NCBI GenBank assembly: GCA_020439605.1 | Contig: JAGQSI010000012.1 | Location: 3,443 to 16,398 of the forward strand | DNA length: 12,956 nucleotides | DNA from: Acidimicrobiales bacterium | GTDB lineage: Bacteria > Actinomycetota > Acidimicrobiia > Acidimicrobiales > Iamiaceae | Reading direction: 5' to 3' | Part shown: piece after piece, positions 4,110 to 12,249 of the stretch | Layout: the number at the start of each line of letters is the position of its first letter | How positions within the stretch are numbered: the first letter of the stretch is position 1 | Position numbers and translations under genes: made by a program | Notes under the pieces: model-generated | What the model saw: the letters and a program-made list of their open reading frames with translations, nothing else | What the model was told of the DNA's origin: nothing | Database searches by the model: none

Positions 4110-4175
4110 GGCTGAACCGTACCTGCATCGGTGCTCTACGGTGAACGTAACGAGGTGGACGATGGATATTGGCCA

Positions 4176-4982
4176 ATGATTTTCAACAAACTCGCAATCT
4201 TGGCCATTGGCCTTGTAGCGCTGAGCACCAGTTGCACCGTGGTCATTGATGAGTCCGCTGATCAATCAACGCAGCCCAACCAGCCAACCTCGAGCGTCGA
4301 CACAACTGTTGTCACTTCGCCGTCCACATCAGCTTCGCCATCGTCTAGTTCCACGTCGCCCACCCCCTCGACCACATCCACGCCATCCGCCACCACATCG
4401 CAACAGCTTCCCGTTGGCGATGTTCCGATCCAACTCCCAGACCTAGGAGCCGCCGGGTTGGTCGACCGTCTGCAGGTCGCACCCGAGGATTCATCCATCC
4501 CCAAATATGAGCGGGACCGGTTTGGTAACGGGTGGGACTACAACTACCAAAGCGGTTGTAACACCAGGGAACTGGTTCTTATTGAAGAATCGTTGATCCC
4601 TGCAGAAGTTGACGACCGCTGTCGCCCAACGCTTGGACGTTGGCGATCGGCCTACGACGCCGTGGTGACCACAGATATCGCAGACCTACAGATCGATCAT
4701 TTCGTGGCTCTCGCAAACGCGTGGAGATCAGGTGCATGGAGATGGAGCGACGAACAACGTCGCGCGTATGCAAACGATCTCACGAGCCCAGATACTTTGA
4801 TCGCTGTAAGCGGACGGTCCAACCAGTCGAAGCAGGACTCGTCGCCAGACGAATGGATGCCTTCGGATAGGCAGAGTTGGTGTAGCTACGCGCAGACCTG
4901 GGTGCGCGTCAAGGCCCGTTGGCAACTAAGCGTTACCCCCGCAGAGAAGTCCGCGTTGGTGTCCTTGCTGTCGAACTGCTGA
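4176..4982 (+). CDS. Exported HNH nuclease-like protein, DUF1524/GmrSD C-terminal type
   Basis: Predicted secreted or membrane-anchored HNH-fold nuclease of 268 residues. Residues 1-20 are a hydrophobic export signal ending LSTSC. Cys20 could be a lipid attachment site, but Ser-Thr-Ser before it is not a canonical lipobox. Residues 28-78 form a Ser/Thr/Pro-rich, low-complexity linker. The globular part (about 85-268) shows the actinobacterial DUF1524 pattern: GCNTRELVL, LQIDHFVALANAWRSGAW with Asp174-His175 as the likely catalytic pair, then VSGRSNQSKQDSSPDEWMP (Asn216, Lys219) and CSYAQTWVRVKARW. Cys128, 149, 236 and 268 could form two disulfides, which suits an extracytoplasmic place. Inferred role: degradation of extracellular nucleic acid for nutrients or defence; no substrate is proven. 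The start at ATG 4176 places the signal at the N-terminus, though its ribosome site is weak. GTG 4155 is an alternative, with fifteen or so odd residues avoided by choosing 4176. Confidence 0.85.
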   Translation: MIFNKLAILAIGLVALSTSCTVVIDESADQSTQPNQPTSSVDTTVVTSPSTSASPSSSSTSPTPSTTSTPSATTSQQLPVGDVPIQLPDLGAAGLVDRLQVAPEDSSIPKYERDRFGNGWDYNYQSGCNTRELVLIEESLIPAEVDDRCRPTLGRWRSAYDAVVTTDIADLQIDHFVALANAWRSGAWRWSDEQRRAYANDLTSPDTLIAVSGRSNQSKQDSSPDEWMPSDRQSWCSYAQTWVRVKARWQLSVTPAEKSALVSLLSNC

Positions 4983-5079: not shown

Positions 5080-6453
5080 CTAGGCAGGCTCTGTGCTTTT
5101 CGCCTCGAGCAAACGCTGGAACCAGTAGCCGCTGTCCTTGATGGTTCTGACCTGAGTGTCAAAGTCCACGTGAACCAGGCCAAAGCGTGGGACATAGCCC
5201 TCGGCCCACTCAAAGTTGTCCATCAAGGACCACGAGAAGTAGCCGCCGACGGGAACACCGTCTTGTATTGCACGGCGAAGCTCACGCAGATGGGCCTCAT
5301 AGAAGGCGATACGGCGTGAGTCGTGGACCCGACCGTCTACTACGTGGTCAGGGAAGGCTGCACCGTTCTCTGTCACGTAGAGCTTTGGCACCGCGTTGTA
5401 TGAGTTCCAACGAGTTAGTGCTTCGTGGAGTCCATCTGGCTGAACTTCCCAACCCATCGCGGTGATCTCGTATTCACGGTGATTGCGGCTGATCCATGGC
5501 ACACCGCGCAGCATCGGCACCGGCCAAGGCTTGACCATCTGACGCTGGTAGTACTGCACGCCTACGAAGTCCCAGTCCACACGAATGTCCTGGTCGTCGC
5601 CGGGCTTGAGGTAACGGTCGATCCCACGAAGCAATGGAGCGTCATCCACCGGGTAACCCATACCCATATTCGGTTCCCAAAAGATCCGGTTGGAGATGGC
5701 GTCGATGCTTGCCTTGGCCTTGCGATCACGCTCGGTATTGCCAACCGTGCGCATGGGTGTCACGACGTGGGTGGTTCCAACATTGGCGTCCTCAACGTTG
5801 GCACGCACCACCCGCGCACCAACCGCTTCGCAAAGGTTCACATGGTGTGCAGCAGCCAGGTATTTGCGCAAGGAACGATTGCCGGGAGCGTGGGTTCCCA
5901 GTAGATGACCGATGAGAACAAACGAGCAGGGCTCGTTGAAGACCATCCAGTTCTTGACGCGGTCCCCGAGGCGAGCGGTAACCACATCTACGTACTCCTC
6001 GAACCAGCCAAGCACCGAACGGTTGGTCCAGCCGCCTTGGTCTTGAAGTACCTGGGGAAAGTCCCAGTGATAGAGGGTGACCCATGGCTCCACACCCTGT
6101 TCCAGGCAGGAGTCAACCAGGCGGTCATAGAAGTCGAGGCCGCGTTCTTCTACCCGACCCACACCATTGGGCAGCACCCGTGGCCATGAGATGGAGAAGC
6201 GCTGAGCATCAAAACCCATTTCCTTGACCAACGCTGTGTCTGAGTCATAGCGGTTGTAGAAGTCGCAAGCGGTATCACCGTTTGCCTTGCCACGAATTCG
6301 CCCACCGCCATGGGTGAAGGTGTCCCAGATCGACAATCCTTTGCCGTCGGCCTTCCAAGAACCCTCAACCTGATAGCTGGCGTGAGCAACGCCCCAAGTG
6401 AAGTTTTCTCCGAAATCAGCTTTGGTGAGATCCGTCTTTGGCAAATCGGTCAT
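5080..6453 (-). CDS. Glycoside hydrolase family 1 beta-glycosidase
   Basis: Retaining beta-glycosidase of family GH1, 457 residues, the usual length, with no export signal, so cytoplasmic. It should split beta-glucosides or related beta-glycosides of imported oligosaccharides. The N-terminus has the family signature FTWGVAHASYQVEGSWKADGKG (residues 18-39) followed by SIWDTF. The acid/base glutamate is Glu174 in MVFNEPCSF and the nucleophile is Glu362 in LYVTENGAA. FSISWPRVLP (87-96), TLYHWDFPQ (126-134) and FSWSLMDNFEWAEGY (406-420) form the sugar-binding site. No truncation or lost key residue is seen. The start at ATG 6453 puts the signature at the right distance from the N-terminus. The ribosome site is poor, and the best promoter-like boxes end only a few bases before the start, so a very short leader is possible. 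An upstream palindrome may regulate it. Confidence 0.96.
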   Translation of the reverse strand: MTDLPKTDLTKADFGENFTWGVAHASYQVEGSWKADGKGLSIWDTFTHGGGRIRGKANGDTACDFYNRYDSDTALVKEMGFDAQRFSISWPRVLPNGVGRVEERGLDFYDRLVDSCLEQGVEPWVTLYHWDFPQVLQDQGGWTNRSVLGWFEEYVDVVTARLGDRVKNWMVFNEPCSFVLIGHLLGTHAPGNRSLRKYLAAAHHVNLCEAVGARVVRANVEDANVGTTHVVTPMRTVGNTERDRKAKASIDAISNRIFWEPNMGMGYPVDDAPLLRGIDRYLKPGDDQDIRVDWDFVGVQYYQRQMVKPWPVPMLRGVPWISRNHREYEITAMGWEVQPDGLHEALTRWNSYNAVPKLYVTENGAAFPDHVVDGRVHDSRRIAFYEAHLRELRRAIQDGVPVGGYFSWSLMDNFEWAEGYVPRFGLVHVDFDTQVRTIKDSGYWFQRLLEAKSTEPA

Positions 6454-6546: not shown

Positions 6547-9147
6547 TTACATCACGCGAACGGCGTACTCGCGGCTAGTGATCAACTCAGTTACCAACAC
6601 GTCGAGGGTTGTGACCTGCGAGGTGAGAGCTTGCACCTGCGCCGCGTGCTCACTTGGCGAAGGGGCCCTGCCCAGCACCATCACATAGACAACGGTGACA
6701 TCCACGCCAGCTTGTTGAACCCGCTCGAACTCACTGGACTCGGAGAAGCCAACCATGAGAGATCCGCGAGATCTTGACTTGGTATCGAGTTGAGAAGTCC
6801 AGAACCTGATGCCGCCTAGGTCTCCAGGACGGTCCAGAACATTCAGGTAAACCTGTTCCACAAATCCTCGGTTGGTGAGCGAGCCGTAAGCAGAAATGAA
6901 CTCGCTTGATCGTGCGAAGTGCTCCGAGATGCTCACAAGACTGCGACTCGATGAACGGCGATGGCCAACCCAGTAGTTGAGTCCGTCCGCGTCAGGAATT
7001 CTCTGGAAGTAGGCCTCGTAAAGCCGCACAATCGGATCCACGTTGTTGCGGTGATCCGACGAGAGACGGAGCTCTTGCGCCAAGGTGCCGGGGGTTAGTG
7101 CACCACTACCCAAGCGACCTACAAGCTCATTGGTAACCGAACTCGATGGCTCTTTACCCATCAGGTCCGAGTACAACCGAGTTACAAGCTCTCCCCATGA
7201 CTCGAACGGTGACCAAGGCTCGGTAGGACATGAATCCATTGATGCAATGGCGCTGTGAGCATTGACCAAACCACCCCCGACGGCATGCTCGTTGAAGCCA
7301 CTGATCGGTGTGGCAGTTGAGCGCATCACGTCAAGAATCACTGAAGGACTAAGGCAGGGGCGGGCCTGTTTGATCAGTGCAGCAACAGCAGCCACATGAG
7401 GAGCCGCCTGCGAGGTTCCATAGAAGCGGTAAGCGCCGGACTCGTAGTTGCCGAAAAAGGAATTGGCGCCACGATTGGTTGCTACCAGGTCGATCGTATC
7501 TGTCTGGCAGGGTTTGCCAATAGCGGGAGTACTGCCTGTGACCGGCCCCCAGCAGTATGTGACGGGTCCTCGTGAACTGAATGACTCCGGAGCCAAGGAC
7601 GAGTAATACGGGACCGCGCCAACCGAAACAACGTTGGGGGTCAAGTTGTGGCCGTAAGAACTAGGGCCGATCACATCAGTGCCCTGTGCAACGCTGCGCT
7701 CTACTGCTGTCACGGAACTGCTTCTCGAAGACACGGTTCTAAAGCGAGGAGTACCCGACTGTCCGTACCTACCAACTACCAGGTCATAGGTTCTGTTGAA
7801 TCCAGAGGTATTGGTGTACTCGACGAGTTCGTACGCCTTCTTGGTGGAGTTGATGTTGTCGTAAGTCGATTCGCCAACAACCGAGCCCGAGGCCTTGTCC
7901 ACCAGGAACAGGTCAAGGTCAGTGGTGACTGCGTTCACCGGCTCGCTGTAGCCGAGGATTATTCGAAGGCTGCCACCGGGTCCGAGCGTGTACCCGTTGC
8001 CAGTATCGGTTCCGGCACCGGGATCGAAGTCATGGCAGAGGTCTATACCCGCACTTGCGGTTACTGCAGAGGGACACGGGCTCGGACGTAGAGCCATGGC
8101 CTCATAGGAGCCAACATCGTTGTTTCCAATGCGCAGGTTTGAGTTCTGCGCCGAGGACACAACCACCACACCTTGGGCGCTCACCTCATTGATTGCCGCA
8201 GCAATGATCCCGTCCTGATAGTGCGGTTCGTTGAAATAGGTGATGTCATCGACGATCACATCCGCACCTGCAGCAGAGAGGGATCGAATCTGATTGGCAA
8301 AGTCCACGTCACCGTTGAACGCGGTGGCAAAGCGGATGGTGGCACCAGGTGCTAGATCGTGAATGGCTTGGGCCATGGCCCTGCCCTCATCTGAACCAGC
8401 ACTAATTTTCTCCGACTGGATCTGAACGGCCTTCTTACGGCCACACGGGTTCGAGGGACCGGGCAACTCGCCGTTTGCTACGTCTGCAGATGCCCCACCG
8501 AGGTTGTTGTAGGAATCTGACAGAACGCCGATCATGAGGCCCGTACCGTCCACGTCGAACTCACTGCGAGCCGATGCAGCGTTGAGTTGGGTATCTCCCT
8601 CGGACACAATTCGGTTCTCGCAACCGGGAGCATTTGTGACTGCTCCAGTAGACCCGCCGAGTACCTGAGCCACTGCTTGTCGAGCGCCTGCATTTATGGA
8701 CGGAGTGCGCTGTTCCTCTATCCCCACCACACCTTCCATGGCCGCTAGATCGGAGAGGCCTGCGGGCTGGACTGCCACAGTTGCAACGGCGCCATCAGGA
8801 CTAGTTGCAACCAGAGTTGCTCCGTGGCTCTCAGCGCTTTGGTCAGTGACTACAGGCGAACCCGGTGCAAGCATCAGGTTCACCAGAATGGTTCCTTGAT
8901 CGCCACGCAACAATGACCCGGCACCGCTGGTGGGCAAGCCGACGAGCTTGTTCTCCTGACGAGGCGACAACTCTGGCGTGGCCTGCTGCGCCAGGATCGT
9001 CAACTTTGGACTCAGCGGCGTTTCGTATCGGGCTTGTGTGTTTGGATCCACTACGGGCTTTGCTTGAGCCACAGCGGGAAGGAGCGCGCCACAAACACCT
9101 ACCAACGCGGCTACCGCGAAACTGAGTGATCGGTGTGTGGATGACAT
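6547..9147 (-). CDS. Secreted subtilase-like serine protease with DUF4214 C-terminal region
   Basis: Large exported protease of 866 residues. Residues 1-29 are a classical signal peptide ending AVAQA before KPVVD. The catalytic domain spans about 195-635. The Asp motif is DGTGLMIGVLSDSYN with Asp211. The expected His position carries acidic residues in SDEGRAMAQAIHDLAPGA (Asp253, Glu254), so the usual HGT motif is missing. VDD (299-301) and SSAQN (Asn335) follow. The nucleophile motif is GTSQAAPH with Ser579. An inserted stretch (about 375-480) separates the centre from the Ser motif. Glu/Asp/Ser chemistry like that of sedolisins (S53) is therefore possible. Residues about 651-866 hold repeats of DUF4214 type (LYEAYFQRIPDADGLNYWVGHRR, FVEQVYLNVLDRPGDLGGIRFWTSQL), each with the helix-loop 'R.pD..G..yW' pattern. 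These domains are found on many secreted proteins and may aid cell-surface binding. The gene is monocistronic or heads the glycosidase gene. Confidence 0.9.
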   Translation of the reverse strand: MSSTHRSLSFAVAALVGVCGALLPAVAQAKPVVDPNTQARYETPLSPKLTILAQQATPELSPRQENKLVGLPTSGAGSLLRGDQGTILVNLMLAPGSPVVTDQSAESHGATLVATSPDGAVATVAVQPAGLSDLAAMEGVVGIEEQRTPSINAGARQAVAQVLGGSTGAVTNAPGCENRIVSEGDTQLNAASARSEFDVDGTGLMIGVLSDSYNNLGGASADVANGELPGPSNPCGRKKAVQIQSEKISAGSDEGRAMAQAIHDLAPGATIRFATAFNGDVDFANQIRSLSAAGADVIVDDITYFNEPHYQDGIIAAAINEVSAQGVVVVSSAQNSNLRIGNNDVGSYEAMALRPSPCPSAVTASAGIDLCHDFDPGAGTDTGNGYTLGPGGSLRIILGYSEPVNAVTTDLDLFLVDKASGSVVGESTYDNINSTKKAYELVEYTNTSGFNRTYDLVVGRYGQSGTPRFRTVSSRSSSVTAVERSVAQGTDVIGPSSYGHNLTPNVVSVGAVPYYSSLAPESFSSRGPVTYCWGPVTGSTPAIGKPCQTDTIDLVATNRGANSFFGNYESGAYRFYGTSQAAPHVAAVAALIKQARPCLSPSVILDVMRSTATPISGFNEHAVGGGLVNAHSAIASMDSCPTEPWSPFESWGELVTRLYSDLMGKEPSSSVTNELVGRLGSGALTPGTLAQELRLSSDHRNNVDPIVRLYEAYFQRIPDADGLNYWVGHRRSSSRSLVSISEHFARSSEFISAYGSLTNRGFVEQVYLNVLDRPGDLGGIRFWTSQLDTKSRSRGSLMVGFSESSEFERVQQAGVDVTVVYVMVLGRAPSPSEHAAQVQALTSQVTTLDVLVTELITSREYAVRVM

Positions 9148-9254: not shown

Positions 9255-9758
9255 TTACAAACGGCCCAGCTTGGCGGTGGCCTTTGGGTCATAGAGACAA
9301 ACAACTTCGCTCAAATAGCGCAGTTCCAACGCCGTCTTGAGCATCGCAGCGCCAGCTCCAGCCGTTGGAAGATGCGAGGTGACAACCACATAGGGCGCAG
9401 GGTCTTGAAGGGAGCGAAGCAGCGCACCGTTGGCAATTGCCTTCTTCAAGGTATCGGTCCTCATCAGGCCCGGTCGGTTCCCTTGGACACTGCCCTTGTA
9501 CTCGAACCAGATCAACACCCCAGAAGGGCTGATTGCTGCTTGATCAATCTCAACGCCGATCTCGCTCAGAACTCTTCGACCCTGCAACTCGAAGCCAAGA
9601 TGACCCAAGAGCGTGTCGCACTGCTCGGCAAACTGTCTTCCCTGAATCCCCGCTGATGCCTGAAAGCTCTTGGGTTCGCCAAGACTTGGCGGTCGAGAAT
9701 CCCGGCTCGGTTCCGCGCTCTCGCCCTCTATCAACGGAAGTTGCCCAGGGTCACTCAT
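9255..9758 (-). CDS. Small PD-(D/E)XK-like nuclease related to the methyltransferase tail
   Basis: I do not recognise a named family. This 167-residue protein has a flexible, Pro/Ser-rich start (1-35) and one compact domain (36-167). The core reads GVEIDQAAI, a short turn, then LIWFEYKGS, which fits the PD-(D/E)XK fold with Asp72, Glu86 and Lys88 as metal and catalytic residues. RPGLMRTDTLKKAIANGALL (95-114) follows, then a hydrophobic strand PYVVVTSHLP. The same domain, aligned without gaps over residues 68-127, forms the tail of the methyltransferase at 10801-12249, there with the catalytic residues changed. Its ATG overlaps the stop of the YceH gene as ATGA, so translation is probably coupled. 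Inferred role: the DNA-cutting partner of the methyltransferase, or a nuclease of another DNA-processing step. No helicase or ATPase domain is present. Nuclease fold is likely; restriction activity is inference. Confidence 0.7.
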   Translation of the reverse strand: MSDPGQLPLIEGESAEPSRDSRPPSLGEPKSFQASAGIQGRQFAEQCDTLLGHLGFELQGRRVLSEIGVEIDQAAISPSGVLIWFEYKGSVQGNRPGLMRTDTLKKAIANGALLRSLQDPAPYVVVTSHLPTAGAGAAMLKTALELRYLSEVVCLYDPKATAKLGRL

Positions 9759-10708
9759 GGCTGGGACGCATCCGAATCACCCAAACGAGCAATCACATGG
9801 GCTATCTCGGGTTGATTCTCGCCATCTATGGCTCTGGGACCGCTTGCGTACCATTCAGGCTCCACGAAACCCAAGACATCGAGACCATCGAGAACCACAT
9901 CCAAAGTGGATCTAGAACAGGCAACGCTGACCCAGGTTCCAGCATCCATCCCCTGCGCGTTCTCAACCAGCCTCGCCTCAATCTCGCCCGTCGTTAGCCC
10001 TCCGGTCTCAACCAGAGTTGGTGTTGCTCCAGCCAACAGCTCCGCGAAACGCAACTGGACCCACCCGCTGAAATCAACTGGTGCTTGGGTCCCCATAGAC
10101 GTAGCAGGTATCCCCTGAGCACCTGACGTACCGGCACCTAGGTCAAGGTTCACCGGTCCGAGGGTATGAATCCACCGTGAGTCATGCTGCGAGGGAAGCC
10201 TCTCCAGTTCTCCCACCAAGGCACCGCCGGTTCGAGACACCATTGCTGCGAGCAGCACTTCAACGTCGCTGCGATCATCAAAGTGATGCAGCCGTTCGGT
10301 TCTCGTCTTCAGCTCACCGGGTGCTTGGGGGCCACGCAGCAACAGGATGGTAAGCAAAGCACGCTCATCTGCTTCGAGATTCAGTCGCTCATCTATCACC
10401 TGTCGGTATTTGACCGCCCGGGCGCCAGAGGAGGCGTAAACCATTCGGGCAAGCCCCCGGGCCTTCAACCTATCTATGGCATCGAGAATCGTCTGATCAT
10501 CGAGATCCATCACCGGTTCTCGACTCGAACTCTGGTTACAGGCAGTCCTCAAAGCGTTCAACGTGAGTGGATAGGTGCTCGGTACGGTGATCTCCTTTTC
10601 GAGAAGTGCGCCGATCACACGTTGTTCCACCTCGTCTAGTTGAGGAAGGTCTTCATTATTGCCAGCCACAACGGCGATGGTAGGCCGATTCGATGACACT
10701 TCGGTCAT
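9755..10708 (-). CDS. YceH-family (DUF480) protein with C-terminal extension
   Basis: Member of the conserved YceH/DUF480 family, made of two winged-helix-like units and of unknown biochemical role. The family signatures are clear: VEQRVIGALLEKEITVPSTYPLTLNALRTACNQSSSREPVM (residues 27-67), LLTILLLRGPQAPGELKTRTERLHHF (118-143) and SRWIHTLGPV near 177-186. The usual family length is a little over 200 residues; this protein has 317. The extra part (about 205-317) starts with FSGWVQLRFAELLAG and contains a second helical segment, TLDVVLDGLDVLGFVEPEWY, that I cannot assign. Start ATG 10708 is chosen as the only start that gives the complete signature with a short lead; no good ribosome site is visible. 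The stop TGA overlaps the ATG of the nuclease gene (ATGA at 9755-9758), so the two form an operon. It is divergent from the methyltransferase gene with 92 bases between. Confidence 0.9.
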   Translation of the reverse strand: MTEVSSNRPTIAVVAGNNEDLPQLDEVEQRVIGALLEKEITVPSTYPLTLNALRTACNQSSSREPVMDLDDQTILDAIDRLKARGLARMVYASSGARAVKYRQVIDERLNLEADERALLTILLLRGPQAPGELKTRTERLHHFDDRSDVEVLLAAMVSRTGGALVGELERLPSQHDSRWIHTLGPVNLDLGAGTSGAQGIPATSMGTQAPVDFSGWVQLRFAELLAGATPTLVETGGLTTGEIEARLVENAQGMDAGTWVSVACSRSTLDVVLDGLDVLGFVEPEWYASGPRAIDGENQPEIAHVIARLGDSDASQP

Positions 10709-10800
10709 GTCTTTGCGCTTTGGCGGGCCTCGGCACCCATCTGCCAGAGAAAGTTCACGTCATACGAACACCCGCGCGATCTGCCATTAGGGTTACACCG
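10709..10800. promoter_or_regulatory. Divergent promoter region between YceH-nuclease operon and methyltransferase
   Basis: These 92 bases must carry the promoters of both transcription units unless they are read from outside. I see no convincing -35/-10 pair on either strand. AGGG at 10789-10792 is a fair ribosome site eight bases before the methyltransferase ATG at 10801. Shared control of nuclease and methyltransferase from this region is plausible but unproven. Confidence 0.35.
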
Positions 10801-12249
10801 ATGGCCTCTAGCGCAAAGCGTCAACGTACGTCGACGTCCAACTTCGGAGTCGGGAAACGTGAAGGCCATGACGCGTCGGGGTTCTATGAGCGCTTCACCC
10901 TGCCCACCATTTCGAGCGACGAAACCATCAACGTTGCCGAACAGCAAGACCAGATCTGGGTACACGACGCAAGATCCATGCCCGAGCTCACAGACAACTG
11001 CGTTGCTCTGGTTGTGACATCGCCACCCTATTTTGCTGGGAAGGCCTACGAAGAGGCGCTCGGCGAGGGCCATATTCCCGGTGACTATGCGGAGTATCTC
11101 GAAATGCTCCATGGGGTGTTTTCGGAGTGTGTTCGTGTTCTCGAACCGGGCGGGCGTATAGCGGTCAACGTGGCCAATCTCGGCCGCAAGCCTTACCGCT
11201 CTCTTTCCGCCGATGTGATCACCATCTTGTCGGATCTCGGTCTACTTCTACGTGGGGAGGTCCTGTGGCAGAAGGCAAAGGGGGCGGGTGGAAACTGCGC
11301 ATGGGGGTCTTTCCAGCGCCCAACCAATCCGGTCATTCGTGACCTCACCGAACGCGTAATCATCGCCAGCAAAGGGCGATTCGATCGAGCATTGGATCAA
11401 AAGAAGAGACTCAAGGCTGGTTTGCCCCATGTGGCTACGCTCCAGCGCGACGAGTTCATGGAGGCCACCACAGACCTGTGGGAGATTGCACCAGAACGCG
11501 CCACCAAGGTTGGCCATCCAGCACCTTTCCCGGTGGAACTGCCCGAGCGTCTGATCCATCTCTACACGTACCGTGAAGACCTTGTTCTGGATCCGTTCAT
11601 GGGTTCGGGGACCACTGCGGTGGCTGCGGTGCGCACTGGTAGGCATTTCGTTGGATACGACACGGACGAGCACTACGTGCACAAGGCACTGCTCCGAATA
11701 GATGCGGCCCGCCAGGTTGACGGATCTGGCTCTGAAGGGTCAGCCACGAGCGGAGTGCATCTCTTACCCGGGTCGAGCTCATCATCATCTTCAACGCCCG
11801 ACGCCGAGTCACCAACTACCCACCGAAGCGCCATGCGCGAAGGGCGCGCCGCTCGTGACTTGGCGCACCAACTTCTTGAAGAAAACGGATTCACTGTCAC
11901 CAACACGAAGGTCACGGTGACGAGTTGTGGTGTGGACGTAAGTTTCGAAGCCAAGGATGCGCTTGGTCGGATCTGGCTGTTTGATGTGGCCGGCGGTTTC
12001 ACTGCGATTCGCCCCGGCCTCGAACGCAATGAGGTTCTGTGGAAGGCAATAGCGAAAGGTGCCGTACTCCACGGAGCAGACCCCACCACAAACTTCGTGG
12101 TGCTCGCAGCGGGATTGGCTTCTGGCCAAGGGGCCAAAGCGCTTCAACATGTTGTGGGCGCAGGACAACCAATCCGAGCGGTGATAGATCTAAGTCGGAC
12201 CGATGATGTCGAGCGTCTTCGAGACCTCGCCTCCACCAATGAGGAATAG
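10801..12249 (+). CDS. Beta-class N4/N6 DNA methyltransferase fused to a pseudonuclease-like tail
   Basis: S-adenosylmethionine-dependent DNA methyltransferase, 482 residues, modifying the exocyclic amine of cytosine or adenine. Motif IV, TSPPY (residues 73-77), comes before the cofactor motif DPFMGSGTT (264-272), the order of the beta class. The serine-type SPPY leans towards N4-cytosine but does not prove it. LEPGGRIAVNVANLGRKPYR and HPAPFPVELPERLIHLYTYREDLVLDPF are standard family blocks. A Ser-rich linker (about 305-345, with a run of seven Ser) leads to an extra domain (346-480) that is homologous to the small nuclease at 9255-9758: shared GF, GV, RPGLER (404-409) and KAIAKGAVL (415-423). 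At the aligned catalytic positions it has Ser381, Asp395 and Ala397 instead of Asp, Glu and Lys, so it is probably inactive as a nuclease. The frame is open from 10693, but ATG 10801 has a ribosome site and avoids overlap with the YceH start. Target sequence unknown. Confidence 0.9.
   Translation: MASSAKRQRTSTSNFGVGKREGHDASGFYERFTLPTISSDETINVAEQQDQIWVHDARSMPELTDNCVALVVTSPPYFAGKAYEEALGEGHIPGDYAEYLEMLHGVFSECVRVLEPGGRIAVNVANLGRKPYRSLSADVITILSDLGLLLRGEVLWQKAKGAGGNCAWGSFQRPTNPVIRDLTERVIIASKGRFDRALDQKKRLKAGLPHVATLQRDEFMEATTDLWEIAPERATKVGHPAPFPVELPERLIHLYTYREDLVLDPFMGSGTTAVAAVRTGRHFVGYDTDEHYVHKALLRIDAARQVDGSGSEGSATSGVHLLPGSSSSSSSTPDAESPTTHRSAMREGRAARDLAHQLLEENGFTVTNTKVTVTSCGVDVSFEAKDALGRIWLFDVAGGFTAIRPGLERNEVLWKAIAKGAVLHGADPTTNFVVLAAGLASGQGAKALQHVVGAGQPIRAVIDLSRTDDVERLRDLASTNEE

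Follow-up and report, generated by a model that had tools for sequence, protein, structure and literature searches.

What does it mean when the same protein fold occurs in a probable DNA-cutting enzyme and in a DNA-modifying enzyme encoded close by? The question is raised by a 12,956-nucleotide stretch of Acidimicrobiales DNA (contig JAGQSI010000012.1; hereafter the window), which encodes a predicted standalone PD-(D/E)XK nuclease of 167 amino acids (aa), here termed NUC (9255..9758, minus strand), and a 482-aa beta-class DNA methyltransferase (10801..12249, plus strand) whose C-terminal domain (CTD; residues 331-482, 11791..12246, plus strand) is homologous to NUC. Our preferred reading, to which we assign a probability of about 0.6, is that NUC and the methyltransferase constitute a Type II-like restriction-modification pair, superimposed on a core methyltransferase that has been domesticated and is otherwise mostly solitary.

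Homology between NUC and the CTD, as claimed in an earlier note made from the letters of this DNA, was borne out by each comparison. With residues numbered from the ATG at 10801, NUC residues 68-127 align to methyltransferase residues 377-436 without a gap and with 21 identities out of 60, reproducing the alignment first seen by eye, whereas the best ungapped 60-mers between NUC and 60 shuffled CTDs reached 14 identities at most (mean 11.8). BLASTP of NUC against the methyltransferase returned 36 identities over 115 positions (E 1e-8), and when NUC was used as query against the genome of the window, only NUC itself and the CTD (E 2.4e-9) were recovered at E values up to 10. Two of the checks proposed in the earlier note, profile comparison and structure prediction, agreed with this: the NUC and CTD family profiles matched over 140 columns with a probability of 99.84% (E 3.6e-30), and the order of helices and strands was identical in the two models.

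The two copies differ in their active sites. The predicted structure of NUC (predicted local distance difference test score, pLDDT, 90; the first 28 residues carry neither helix nor strand) has PD-(D/E)XK nucleases as its structural neighbours, and the catalytic residues Asp72 (codon 9543..9545, minus strand) and Glu86-x-Lys88 (E-Y-K, 9495..9503, minus strand) are all kept in 19 of 19 aligned NUC rows, so that the endonuclease site of a known restriction fold is intact and the earlier call of a nuclease fold holds. At the equivalent positions the CTD has Ser381, Asp395 and Ala397 (11941..11991, plus strand), and the catalytic lysine was lost in 69 of 69 CTD rows (67 genes, two having been entered twice; all from loci fetched as best NUC matches). 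Judged by these residues, the CTD is an inactivated nuclease copy and no second cutter, because the catalytic lysine is gone; a second working nuclease was therefore rejected, and the duplicated fold proposed earlier, one copy in the modifier and one in the cutter, stands as one cutter and one pseudo-nuclease. Mostly common to active and dead copies is a conserved segment, RPGLxRTDTxKK (NUC residues 95-106, 9441..9476, minus strand), recognized from residue counts and from alignment with viral copies. NUC has 671 homologues at E <= 0.001; it matched no Pfam family over its cut-off, nothing in NCBIfam, PADLOC or PHROGs, and no relative in the plasmid sequences searched, and both NUC and the CTD gave only chance-level rows against PDB sequences.

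The catalytic part of the methyltransferase agrees with the earlier beta-class assignment. It matches PF01555 (E 3.8e-38), and its catalytic motif IV, TSPPY (11017..11031, plus strand; invariant across 52 aligned sequences), precedes the S-adenosylmethionine-binding motif I, DPFMGSG (11590..11610, plus strand), which places the enzyme in the beta class. The open reading frame is listed from 10693, and the ATG at 10801 is its likely start: across eight aligned homologous loci, an in-frame TAG lies immediately upstream of the equivalent methionine in three, one (L103) is open there and four alignments begin too late to be informative. In this family, TSPPY suggests N4-methylcytosine (m4C) as the product; some sources label relatives of this enzyme adenine-specific. 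Its nearest solved relative is TTHA0409, a putative modification methylase of Thermus thermophilus (2zie), but the match spans model residues 49-307 only and leaves the CTD outside; the rows of the structural neighbour list for the whole methyltransferase were likewise filled by the catalytic domain, with the CTD barely covered. Some copies of the methyltransferase stop before the CTD, with the match ending near residue 305 of 482 in a short frame.

Phylogenetic analyses bear on how the dead domain was acquired. In a tree of 95 rows, NUC, the CTDs and a set of dead standalone copies each formed one group (support 95/58, 97/95 and 100/100). With phage relatives as outgroup, the CTDs again grouped together as a single clade (100/99), whose long stem arises among active nucleases; this tree omitted the dead standalone copies, which have a very long branch, the fragment L098 was dropped before tree building, and CTD rows in trees with phage relatives were thinned at random to 28 or 29. 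Such a clade would be expected from a single fusion of an active nuclease, followed by loss of catalysis. The NUC rows were not one group in the outgroup-rooted tree: two deep rows (G437 and G448) and viral L226, all three located beside CTD-less methyltransferases, were placed on the CTD side, but this placement is weakly supported (87/93, 80/54), involves long branches and comes from a bootstrap that had not settled. In another tree with phage relatives, which had one row (viral L228) in the wrong frame, support for the CTD clade was only 50/80.

Two further arrangements of the fold were observed. In one family, an additional standalone copy carries a ruined active site, with LARG replacing EYKG (L091:1840-2418, minus; L092:4979-5557, plus; L093:4929-5585, plus; L094:6075-6653, plus); it is convergent to a CTD-bearing methyltransferase in three of the four loci, and at L094 the methyltransferase is on another contig. 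In G518, a CTD-like domain is a separate gene directly after a CTD-less methyltransferase (L069:1000-1917 and 1920-2831, both minus), a split or unfused state.

The methyltransferase was present (E <= 1e-30) in 314 of 395 Acidimicrobiia genomes, a sample drawn from a larger group, and mostly once per genome. Intact NUC frames were found in seven of these 395 genomes, with one further broken NUC (G072). A phylum sample of 296 genomes added four further carriers, and the family of the Aquihabitans metagenome-assembled genome G667 another 10 among its 23 genomes. These 21 distinct carriers all encode the methyltransferase, 20 by direct match to its catalytic part and one (G676) by a CTD match only, within a 553-aa frame. 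No NUC was found in the great majority of the 314 methyltransferase carriers, nor, within the class sample, in most CTD-bearing genomes. Beyond the window and the Aquihabitans-like family, NUC and the methyltransferase were neighbours in all 10 genomes (G084, G100, G332, G068, G279, G191, G567, G479, G448 and G437), directly adjacent in six and with one small gene in between in G084, G100, G191 and G567. Within the family, six genomes (G665, G667, G668, G669, G671 and G675) hold both genes on one contig, approximately 2.5 to 18 kb apart and about 14 kb apart on the complete chromosome of G675; in the window, a YceH gene sits between them. The methyltransferase of G669 looks like a replacement from another lineage. 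In G072, a NUC remnant with an in-frame TGA (C1:343882-344079; L086 ~5883-6080) lies beside an open-frame methyltransferase, as expected where the nuclease is lost while the methyltransferase stays.

Pairing extends to viral contigs and to methyltransferases that lack the CTD. On viral contig L226, a CTD-less methyltransferase (36% identical over 248 aa) overlaps NUC (37% identical) by eight bases, and on L225 and L227 NUC is paired with a different methyltransferase through a four-base gene overlap; no CTD was confirmed in the viral contigs searched. The neighbourhood survey suggested in the earlier note therefore yielded repeated co-location, in distant genomes and on three of four NUC-type viral contigs. 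In G332, G448 and G437, too, NUC adjoins a methyltransferase that ends before the CTD, so the CTD is dispensable for the pairing. The earlier suggestion that the two proteins pair through the shared fold is weakened accordingly, at least as an obligatory mechanism. The CTD-less and viral pairs argue that nuclease and methyltransferase act as a functional unit independently of the CTD.

The same observations bear on what the dead domain might do. It could be an antitoxin-like guard, competing or dimerizing with NUC to block it rather than adding DNA recognition, an idea that draws on the active and dead forms of one fold lying side by side, on the retention in the CTD of the common segment and not of catalysis, and on the additional dead standalone copies that one family has close to this methyltransferase. 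We regard this as improbable, given that most CTD-bearing genomes have no NUC to guard against and that NUC occurs beside methyltransferases with no CTD.

Distribution also informs a second alternative, that NUC serves in housekeeping repair or recombination (as a mismatch, junction or strand-directed nicking enzyme) and is guided by the mark of the core methyltransferase. An enzyme found in seven of 395 class genomes, against 314 for the methyltransferase, would be an odd housekeeping component, and NUC is also paired with unlike methyltransferases in viral contigs. The comparison with EndoMS/NucS is partial: NUC has no counterpart of the N-terminal domain, aligning only with residues 125-236 of the 5gke chain, and, unlike EndoMS/NucS, it is linked to a methyltransferase. 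A repair role is unlikely, although it is the least unlikely of the alternatives to a restriction nuclease.

Among phages, a relative of NUC was placed among replication genes in 19 of 57 loci. Sliding clamp, polymerase-annotated, clamp loader and RegA genes are the neighbours in such settings (L229:3992-4390, plus; L234-L251 and L290). In Synechococcus phage Sf-FR1, outside the 57, the relative is annotated as a NO VEIN C-terminal domain protein and is followed, about 160 bases downstream, by a D12-class methyltransferase; a T4-like label for these phages rests on the Sf-FR1 gene names. Free-standing homing nucleases are common among phage replication genes, and this setting, together with the relatives in viral contigs, is what a phage-derived, selfish (homing-type) nuclease would predict, one that settled by a methyltransferase that happens to protect its site. 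The conserved setting in Aquihabitans-like genomes speaks against such an origin, as do the overlaps between nuclease and methyltransferase genes and the recurrence of the pairing in distant lineages, all of which favour a functional pair. We consider a selfish nuclease the least probable of these explanations.

Several observations weigh against a restriction-modification pair. The methyltransferase background is already 79%, so bare co-occurrence says little and linkage carries the argument, and four of the 10 Aquihabitans-like carriers (G664, G666, G670 and G676) hold the two genes on different contigs. Distances between NUC sequences and between methyltransferase sequences were correlated over 19 pairs (r 0.75), but agreement was weak without the two deep lineages (r 0.39, p 0.012), within the Aquihabitans-like set plus the window (r 0.24, p 0.11) and among the eight others (r 0.29, p 0.17). 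The chromosomal setting of NUC is conserved in the window and Aquihabitans-like genomes, unlike that of typical mobile restriction systems; genes for an aldo/keto reductase and a family 1 glycosidase lie near NUC in the window, G671 and G668. Viral L228 has no match within its 10 kb to a panel of three methyltransferases, and phage relatives of NUC are mostly solitary, with 52 of 57 loci lacking and five having a match to this panel in the fetched stretch; the panel is small and many stretches are incomplete, so methyltransferases may be missed. Finally, the accessible part of PMC4752239 gives restriction-system methyltransferases as seldom conserved, 9% at genus level.

The search for a recognition site also enters here, avoidance of such a site being a supporting and not a defining feature of Type II systems. 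We compared 4- to 6-mers in five NUC-bearing genomes (G675, G084, G068, G479 and G332; ~810 kb, 12 kb of G479 being counted twice) with six NUC-less genomes (G680, G111, G115, G052, G688 and G685; ~786 kb), the 13 kb window being too short to add, and across these five and six genome samples no palindrome stood out as avoided only in NUC carriers. CGCG, CTAG and GTAC were low in many genomes, NUC-bearing and NUC-less alike. Mean log2 ratios were -0.86 in carriers vs -0.51 in NUC-less genomes for ATCGAT and -0.53 vs -0.27 for CTCGAG, values from which, with no significance test and kinship uncontrolled, we draw nothing. Near dnaA, in eight methyltransferase-bearing genomes, TGTACA occurred 18 times against 5.8 expected (two against zero in G014, the sole genome without the methyltransferase; G055 was left uncounted because it offered no background), and some AT-rich words and CGCGCG were raised unevenly; we read these clusters as composition rather than as a finding. 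The accessible part of PMC6329791 includes one Acidimicrobiia bin, for which neither a methyltransferase nor a motif was found.

The locus can be set beside several known systems. As in Type II restriction-modification, a small PD-(D/E)XK nuclease with an intact site is linked to a separate methyltransferase with intact motifs; unlike Type II systems, the methyltransferase carries a dead nuclease copy as its C-terminal domain and is near class-wide, whereas the nuclease is rare. Conserved solitary methyltransferases are defined, in the accessible part of PMC4752239, by their occurrence in half or more of the species within a high-rank group, and the 314 of 395 class genomes place our enzyme with Dam/CcrM-like enzymes in this respect, but it differs from them in its pseudo-nuclease domain and in being linked to a nuclease, as seen in the window, ten pairs of neighbouring genes and six pairs that share a contig. 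Single-chain Type IIG/IIC enzymes, in the part of PMC4081073 available, likewise join a nuclease fold and a methyltransferase in one polypeptide, although here the nuclease domain is C-terminal and ruined in every CTD row. A literature search for any described methyltransferase that bears such an inactive nuclease domain, with subscription journals largely outside its coverage, returned nothing that we recognized as this locus.

Of the neighbouring genes, YceH/DUF480 (9755..10708, minus strand; PF04337, E 2.1e-52) overlaps the start of NUC by 4 bp (ATGA), and the earlier note had included it in a three-gene locus. It was near NUC only in the window and in some Aquihabitans-like relatives (L032, L033, L036, L037 and L153). 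The fetched stretches of all 10 NUC loci from other lineages gave no match to it, nor did Aquihabitans-like L034, L035, L038 and L039, and we rejected it as a third component, since it is probably a neighbour. A small companion protein of 105-115 aa, which matched nothing in NCBIfam and no Pfam family above threshold, is encoded directly downstream of the methyltransferase (L086:5531-5875, plus; L080:5824-6138; L081:4410-4727, minus; L085:1910-2254, minus; L087:6098-6409; L154:10271-10585) and lies between the methyltransferase and NUC in G084, G100, G191, G567 and, with its broken NUC, G072. Of the 38 class genomes (of 395) with this gene, 36 have the methyltransferase on the same contig 24-279 bases away (in G317, its CTD end), and the other two (G345 and G349) are outside the listed methyltransferase carriers, with matches starting within 310 bases of a contig end. 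The companion was commoner with NUC (three of seven intact carriers, one-sided Fisher p 0.022; four of eight with the broken NUC counted, p 0.004; kinship uncorrected in both); the 70% complete genome of the window yielded no copy. The window additionally encodes a predicted protein with a GmrSD C-terminal nuclease domain (4131-4982, plus strand; PF07510, E 4.6e-10) and, by eye, a secretion-like, Ser/Thr-rich N-terminus, and an 866-aa subtilase-like protein (PF00082) with a DUF4214 domain (6547-9147, minus strand).

Under the restriction-modification reading, NUC would supply restriction and the fused methyltransferase modification: the latter, probably forming m4C as TSPPY indicates, would mark a short site on both strands, and NUC, probably as a dimer, would cut the same site when unmarked. 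The CTD would derive from a NUC-type nuclease fused once to the methyltransferase, with catalysis then lost, and probably still holds DNA or aids binding of the methylation site, because most of the R-x-G-L-x-R-x-D segment is kept. In most Acidimicrobiia the methyltransferase would act alone, with the window's lineage keeping a working nuclease nearby. A more ambitious version, which we offer tentatively and consider rather doubtful, is that the Acidimicrobiia core methyltransferase is itself a restriction-modification system that became domesticated and retains its own dead nuclease, which would now serve in locating or gripping the methylation site or in restraining the living nuclease that the window's lineage keeps next door.

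NUC represents a small nuclease family that is unmatched in Pfam, NCBIfam, PADLOC and PHROGs and has bacterial and phage relatives, and the complete genome G675, which carries both NUC and the methyltransferase, is usable for testing. Because a working nuclease, a dead fused nuclease and a nuclease-less methyltransferase all occur in one class, the possible emergence of solitary methyltransferases from restriction-modification systems can be put to the test in the Acidimicrobiia. The findings suggest that a widespread bacterial DNA methyltransferase once absorbed a restriction nuclease; if the more ambitious version is true, a route from defence system to housekeeping epigenetic enzyme would be visible here, with its intermediate stages in living relatives.

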